Below, in pieces: positions 12,838 through 13,755 of a DNA stretch of 32,157 bases. Under the pieces are notes generated by a model. It searched no databases. It saw nothing but the letters and a program-made list of their open reading frames with translations, and was not told the DNA's origin. Position 1 is the first letter of the stretch, and each line of letters begins with the position of its first letter. The translations under genes and the position numbers were made by a program. Origin of the DNA: Tannerellaceae bacterium (GTDB taxonomy: Bacteria; Bacteroidota; Bacteroidia; Bacteroidales; Tannerellaceae); contig JAISDJ010000113.1 in assembly GCA_031264865.1 (NCBI GenBank), forward strand, positions 1 to 32,157, written 5' to 3'.

Positions 12838-13755
12838 TCACATTCGCCAGACATTCCATGTTTGCAACAGTACGGAAAAAAGGATAAATCCTAAACCGAT
12901 GTAAAAAGAGAAGGTAAGTTCTTTGGCTTCACCTAAGAAAAACATGGCGATTATAATACTATAAACTGGTTCGAGATTATAACTCAAGTTTACGGTAAAA
13001 GCAGATATTTGTTTTAGTACATCTATTTGTAAAAGATAGAGCAATACAGTACAGCAGACAACAAAAATTAACAGATAGATAAAATCTTGTGTATCCGGAA
13101 GAATTGTTTCGACTGGAAAAAAATGCAGATAGAGGGGTATTAGCAAGGTTAGTAAAAGGAAACCACCGAGCATTTCATAAAATACCATGACGGAAGAAGC
13201 ATATTTACTCCCTGTCTGCTTGTTTGTAATGGTGAAAAGCGCTGCCAGAAGAGAGGATGCAATCCCCAACAGGATGCCTTTACGATATTGTACATCGAAA
13301 TGGAATATCAAGCCTATTCCCGCTAATGCAATCAGGCTGAATGCCAGTTCCCTGAAAGATATTCGCCGATGACTTATCAAAGGTTCAAGTATAGCCGTGA
13401 AAAAACCGGTAAGTGAAAAGCAAATCACCCCGATAGACACATTGGATGCTTTAATACTTCCAAAAAAGAATACCCAATGAAGTGCTAACAGGGAACCGAC
13501 GCCAAATAGCTTTAGCCTGCCACTCCAACCCCCTAAAGAGGAGACAGAGAGAATCGTCCTTATTAGCCCTCTCTTTTGGAGGTTGGGGGATGGGCTGGAA
13601 TGGCGAAGTAATAGTATCACCGCCATTACCACCGCGGCAAGCATCATACGATACCAAACCAACAAGCCTTCGTTCAACGTGATTATCTTTCCGAATATAC
13701 CGGTAAATCCGGCTAACAGAATGGAAAGATGCAGTTTAATAAAGGCTTGTTTCAT
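12838..13755 (-). CDS. EamA/DMT-family membrane transporter with in-frame palindromic insertion
   Basis: A 305-residue inner-membrane protein with about ten hydrophobic segments arranged as two EamA repeats. The first includes FGKIITLNEGLLVWYRMMLA and LALHWVFFFGSIKASNVSIG; the second includes YNLEPVYSIIIAMFFLGEAKEL. Such drug/metabolite transporters export or import small metabolites, but the substrate is unknown. Residues about 53-80 (SSPSPNLQKRGLIRT...GGWSG) are hydrophilic, do not fit the family between the second and third membrane segments, and are encoded by a palindromic DNA repeat. The frame is kept. It lies 29 bp after the nucleoside kinase gene on the same strand, so the two are probably co-transcribed. 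Confidence 0.9.
   Translation of the reverse strand: MKQAFIKLHLSILLAGFTGIFGKIITLNEGLLVWYRMMLAAVVMAVILLLRHSSPSPNLQKRGLIRTILSVSSLGGWSGRLKLFGVGSLLALHWVFFFGSIKASNVSIGVICFSLTGFFTAILEPLISHRRISFRELAFSLIALAGIGLIFHFDVQYRKGILLGIASSLLAALFTITNKQTGSKYASSVMVFYEMLGGFLLLTLLIPLYLHFFPVETILPDTQDFIYLLIFVVCCTVLLYLLQIDVLKQISAFTVNLSYNLEPVYSIIIAMFFLGEAKELTFSFYIGLGFILFSVLLQTWNVWRM
13518..13600. repeat. Palindromic repeat inserted in frame in the EamA gene
   Basis: CCAACCCCCTAAAGAGG and CCTCTCTTTTGGAGGTTGG form an imperfect inverted repeat (about 14 of 16 core bases pair) around a 25-30-nt spacer. Outer parts (CCACTCC / GGAATGG) extend the symmetry. The stretch is about 84 bp, i.e. 28 codons. It resembles C-rich/G-rich palindromic repeats seen in Bacteroidetes intergenic regions. 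It is open in several frames, which is why shadow ORFs cross it. Confidence 0.65.

Follow-up and report, generated by a model that had tools for sequence, protein, structure and literature searches.

A palindromic repeat family with in-frame copies in unrelated genes of a Tannerellaceae clade

The window analysed here is a stretch of 32,157 nucleotides from the genome of a Tannerellaceae bacterium (4.69 Mb in 376 contigs; G000 in the following). It holds a gene for an EamA-family transporter, within which lies a palindromic element that is read without a stop as residues ~55–79 of the protein (Table 1). The flanking GGGCTGG, which reaches to about position 13600, is common to this copy and another one in the YgiQ gene. 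The original prediction, made from the sequence of the window, had proposed an element of about 84 bp that adds 28 residues without breaking the frame. The insert and its intact frame proved to be real, but the usual unit is 72 bp, or 24 codons, and the gap in the alignment of EamA orthologs corresponds to a net gain of 18–22 residues. An 18-nt imperfect inverted repeat (13661–13678 / 13734–13751) lies near the start of the same gene.

Table 1. Position and basis of the features in and around the EamA copy, and the linker peptide of a related copy
Feature	Position	Strand	Basis or sequence
EamA-family transporter gene, host of the element (305 codons, 305 aa)	12838..13755	minus	ORF; Pfam PF00892, 5e-25; orthologs
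Canonical 72-bp (24-codon) unit, decayed copy	13520..13591	.	Covariance model from 16 copies, this one among them: 62 bits, E 2.5e-11; BLAST against the C72 copy, 83% over 79 bp
Left arm, CCACTCCAACCCCCTAAAGAGGAGA (consensus ACCCCCCAACCCCCTAAAGGGGGGG)	13520..13544	+	Alignment of copies
22-nt spacer (consensus TAGAGAGAATCGTCCCTGTTAG)	13545..13566	.	Common to most copies of the same genome; differs in G007
Right arm, CCCTCTCTTTTGGAGGTTGGGGGAT (inverted left arm)	13567..13591	minus	Alignment and consensus structure
CarAB linker peptide in PH5-46			AMPPQPPKGGANEVALCPPFRGLGGEFR

In an AlphaFold2 model of the transporter (24-sequence alignment, mean pLDDT 85.7), residues 52–76 lie between two helices (29–51 and 77–103), and pLDDT in the insert is 54–66, compared with at least 90 in most helices. 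The model agrees with the expected loop position between membrane segments, and the element is predicted to form a flexible loop joining transmembrane helices 2 and 3. Among EamA orthologs from the same genus and a wider set, the insert is absent except for a fresh copy in Parabacteroides sp. PH5-46 (G007) and a single relic arm in G011; no ortholog from outside the genus has it, and the alignment shows the anticipated gap.

Taken alone, the window copy is inconspicuous. Its DNA folds no better than dinucleotide shuffles (z = -0.21), and a default inverted-repeat scan does not pick it up, because its arms hold several mismatches. Its covariance score is lower than that of most other full copies, and it is among the most decayed members of its family. 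It is certain as a member of that family rather than by its own hairpin: BLAST with the window element yields 23 matches in its own genome, and a search with the 17-mer arm CCAACCCCCTAAAGGGG, allowing one mismatch, yields 25, compared with none for the reversed control.

The element is thus a dispersed palindromic repeat, with about 19 copies in G000, gathered by searches and from individual stretches of the genome, and 17 in G007 (whose contig C15 matches NZ_JARXXA010000015.1 in length and position). Its consensus is ACCCCCCAACCCCCTAAAGGGGGGG - spacer - CCCCCCCTTTAGGGGGTTGGGGGGT, i.e. two inverted arms of ~25 bp, each of which is also a small palindrome by itself (CCCCCTAAAGGGGG); solo arms occur besides these doublets. 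Most G000 copies have the spacer TAGAGAGAATCGTCCCTGTTAG in either orientation, and the spacers of G007 vary from locus to locus, save for three copies within one gene cluster. On each strand, the arms contain a stop in one of the three frames and are open in the other two, which read TPQPPKGG/PPNPLKGG and PPFRGLGG/PPLGGWG. The element is used in two frames and in both orientations. It has no match in Rfam at E<=1.

Neither of the refuting outcomes named in the original prediction was found: distant genera lack the insert residues, and other copies abound, many of which lie in frame in unrelated genes. In G000, gene-internal copies are found in EamA, YgiQ, MetH, three HlyD paralogs (one with a solo arm), TolC and an ABC ATPase; in G007, they are found in EamA, YgiQ (a solo arm), TolC, an ABC ATPase, an ABC permease, PnuC, a GH67 alpha-glucuronidase, the CarA-CarB junction and a Tricorn-like protease, where the arms are decayed. 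The host proteins have detectable Pfam domains. Across the two genomes, 17 of 17 copies that lie inside genes keep the frame, with at least 11 different genes as hosts; this count is partly conditioned by the recognition of such copies as open ORFs. Likewise, 14 of the 15 full units measured within genes are multiples of three, the exception being the 70-bp unit in EamA of G007. Two of the G007 copies located between genes or at their ends measure 68 bp, and one has no open frame. The remaining copies lie in C-terminal tails, near N-termini or in short gaps (one on contig C8 of G007 is 9 and 19 bp from the neighbouring genes), and their neighbours look intact. Since no copy that splits a gene was seen among them, the frame is probably kept by purifying selection rather than for a coding benefit.

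Orthologs of five host genes were gathered across the 19-species genus. Insert-free orthologous sites exist for EamA, YgiQ, MetH, CarAB and TolC; the HlyD, PnuC, GH67, ABC ATPase, ABC permease and protease copies stand outside this comparison. Pfam domain limits place the MetH copy in the linker that connects the pterin-binding with the B12-binding domain, and that of CarAB where the two subunits join. In both proteins, orthologs have a native linker of similar length that is missing where the element is present, so that the element appears, judging from the alignments, to have replaced this linker rather than lengthened it. In nearly all species of the genus, carA and carB form one fused gene, and they are separate in G006 and G015; the linker of the G007 fusion is the element. 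A role of the element in fusing the two genes was rejected, as most of the genus has them fused with a native linker. The long TolC copy of G000 has a 'spacer' that consists largely of native TolC codons (EELILTTPS; compare GELLLAMPS in G017), and the arms there therefore bracket host codons.

One might read these shared loops as natural low-complexity linkers rich in proline and glycine instead of insertions, given that the sites are length-variable throughout the genus and that the TolC 'spacer' is native coding sequence. Near-identical 25-nt arms, however, recur both between genes and within genes unrelated to one another; they are used in either orientation and in two frames, and the control has no match. 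As one and the same DNA is also intergenic and is used in different frames, such a reading is refuted; codon bias cannot yield the arms, and we give this reading practically no credence.

A tree of four host genes, calculated after removal of gappy columns, has the topology (G007,(G011,(G016,(G000,(G013,G017))))), with a backbone support of 0.985 to 1.0 and a weaker value of 0.82 for the branch joining G000 to G013 and G017. Within this group, the TolC site is occupied in G007, G011, G013 and G000, and relics that score above all of 300 shuffles are found in G013 (YgiQ, TolC) and G011 (TolC, CarAB, EamA). Candidate relics seen by eye in MetH and TolC of G017 and in YgiQ of G016 were not counted (shuffle p = 0.15, 0.45 and 0.03). 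Outside the clade, the examined sites look native (in G004 by the shuffle test, in the others by eye); covariance-model matches in G004 were rejected as relics, as they belong to another palindrome (CCTCCCCACAAGGGAGGGG). Both the fresh copies and the decayed relics that share sites are restricted to one supported clade. In the simplest reading of these sequences, the sites would have been colonised in an ancestor, with subsequent decay in the sister species and retention of fresh arms in two lineages. Another species of the genus carries, in frame within a DUF6057 gene, a different palindromic element (CCTCCCCACAAGGGAGGGGAGAA...TTCTCCCCTCCCTTGTGGGGAGG; G004:C134:10808-10880).

Where G000 and G007 share a site, the arms are near consensus and the spacers unrelated, a pattern that needs homogenisation or re-insertion into the same loops in addition to ancestral colonisation and decay. 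There is a good chance, if somewhat short of an even one, that the shared-site copies were not inherited but re-inserted independently in the two species, owing to the small number of tolerant loops: the EamA and TolC spacers of G000 and G007 are not clearly homologous despite their near-consensus arms, and in the sisters G013 and G017, relics or no recognisable trace are left. Yet relics occupy the same sites in G011 and G013, the TolC copies of G000 and G013 have the bracketed sequence in common, so that at least this copy was inherited, and homogenisation of inherited arms would fit the data equally well. More tentatively, an active homogenising process, be it conversion or repeated re-insertion, might keep the arms at coding loci near-identical in G000 and G007; the same loops would then have been rewritten over the divergence of the species, with arms trapping native codons as in TolC, in a palindrome-driven replacement of loops in conserved metabolic genes.

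Beyond the clade, the 17-nt arm is found with at most one mismatch in 9 of 125 genomes of the family and in 15 of 218 of the order; the 14-nt core has exact matches in 7 of 297 genomes of the phylum. The copies we read elsewhere are mostly intergenic or at gene ends. A notable exception is DUF2400: in G239 and G354, two species of another family, this protein has an arm or a pair of arms at one and the same internal loop. The clade of G000 and G007 thus shows a strong coding habit, which is not unique to it. Right arms in genomes of another family frequently stop directly at a start codon or a few bases before it. In G140, arms bracket intergenic stretches of 300–500 bp that hold several other palindromic repeat families (GTTCGGCGTAGCG..., GCTGGCGCAGATTTAAATCTG), and in G007 (C5:290357-291413), a left and a right arm stand 1 kb apart around a DUF3791/DUF3990 cassette, as if the arms had carried the cassette or the cassette had entered a palindrome.

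Such bracketing would fit a MITE, the arms being the terminal inverted repeats of some unseen DDE transposon. But the arms are palindromic themselves and also solitary, the arm pairs we read enclose no transposase, and by eye no copy shows a target-site duplication, although the divergence of the loops keeps the empty site from being placed to the exact base. We regard this origin as improbable.

In its architecture, the element resembles the BIME/REPIN systems, which consist of two inverted REPs and a spacer, occur along with solo REPs, and have a RAYT gene in the genome (TnpA-REP; PMC6006769). It has the same inverted doublet with a variable spacer and the same solo arms, and there are RAYT genes in G000 (one) and G007 (three). 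Y1_Tnp is found in 8 of the 9 element-bearing genomes of the family compared with 32 of the 116 others (Fisher p = 0.0004, with phylogeny and genome size ignored). Furthermore, the sole RAYT found in G000 sits amid doublets of analogous design that the covariance model matches weakly; at this locus (G000:C227:12512-14591), the RAYT/Y1 transposase lies amid a nested palindromic doublet (GCCCTGCAAGGGCGGAAT...ATTATCCCGCCCTTACAGGGC) inside AGGGTAGGGTTTCAACCCTA repeats. The element might accordingly be a true REPIN, mobilised in trans by the RAYT (Y1 HUH) transposase of the same genome. Against this, the repeats beside the RAYT genes of G000, G007, G140 and G138 differ in sequence, no CCCCCTAAAGGGGG arm lies near them even with two mismatches, and in G129, which carries arms, no RAYT passes the cut-off used. 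A cognate transposase with matching flanking repeats was thus not found in these four genomes, and the RAYTs were rejected as partners, as the genomes correlate but the flanking repeats do not match. We therefore do not file the element as a REPIN, though it is REP-doublet-like, and hold such an identity to be rather unlikely. A further difference is that REPINs are mainly extragenic, whereas the two genomes contain 17 gene-internal copies of the element.

The observations are very probably explained by a non-autonomous, REP-doublet-like palindromic repeat that spread in the ancestor of the clade and whose copies within genes are retained only where they let translation run on. Such a repeat, made of inverted arms that are each a small palindrome and a short variable spacer, would have been dispersed through the genome of a Tannerellaceae ancestor, presumably as a mobile element that depended on factors supplied in trans. 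Insertions into genes would persist only if reading continues, which the unit could allow by its 72 bp, equal to 24 codons, and by arms that leave two of the three frames of each strand open. The tolerated sites would be loops, linkers, gene ends and intergenic gaps. The EamA copy would be one such case, read as a flexible loop between transmembrane helices 2 and 3, and the element would presumably be translated into functional proteins.

A close parallel, already drawn in the original prediction, is offered by the palindromic elements of Rickettsia (RPE; Ogata et al. 2000, 2002, per PMC10969869), short palindromes that lie in frame in many unrelated genes and also in intergenic DNA. The coding habit is indeed alike, and both reside at sites compatible with protein structure. 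The parallel is not complete, as the present element, set against RPEs by description, belongs to Bacteroidota, is shorter (~72 bp versus ~150 bp) and combines the use of two frames and both strands with a REP-doublet layout and a variable spacer. REP dimers of the GTAG and CGTC families are similar too: according to the main text of PMC3733652, inverted dimers encode 20–30 residues within ORFs in several phyla, and many copies lie beside gene ends. That main text has no intragenic example from Bacteroidota, and compared with the dimers it describes, our element has many gene-internal copies and occupies the same loops in several species.

The repeat shares several hallmarks with protein-coding palindromic elements: it is a dispersed palindrome, found in frame in unrelated conserved genes and, for EamA, YgiQ, MetH, CarAB and TolC, absent from orthologs. 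The literature we searched, which mostly did not include subscription journals, contains no match to the 17-nt arm and no precedent for a coding palindromic repeat in Bacteroidota, in line with the expectation that such insertions are little described in Bacteroidales. The evidence thus supports well a new repeat family of an already known sort, in a phylum for which we found no precedent.

This extends protein-coding selfish DNA to Bacteroidota. As the clade includes an isolate genome, that of Parabacteroides sp. PH5-46, translation, protein function and mobility are directly testable. The set of shared sites is unusually informative, since the fresh, decayed and empty versions of the CarAB, TolC, YgiQ and EamA sites form a series in which a selfish repeat may be followed as it becomes, or ceases to be, a protein loop.
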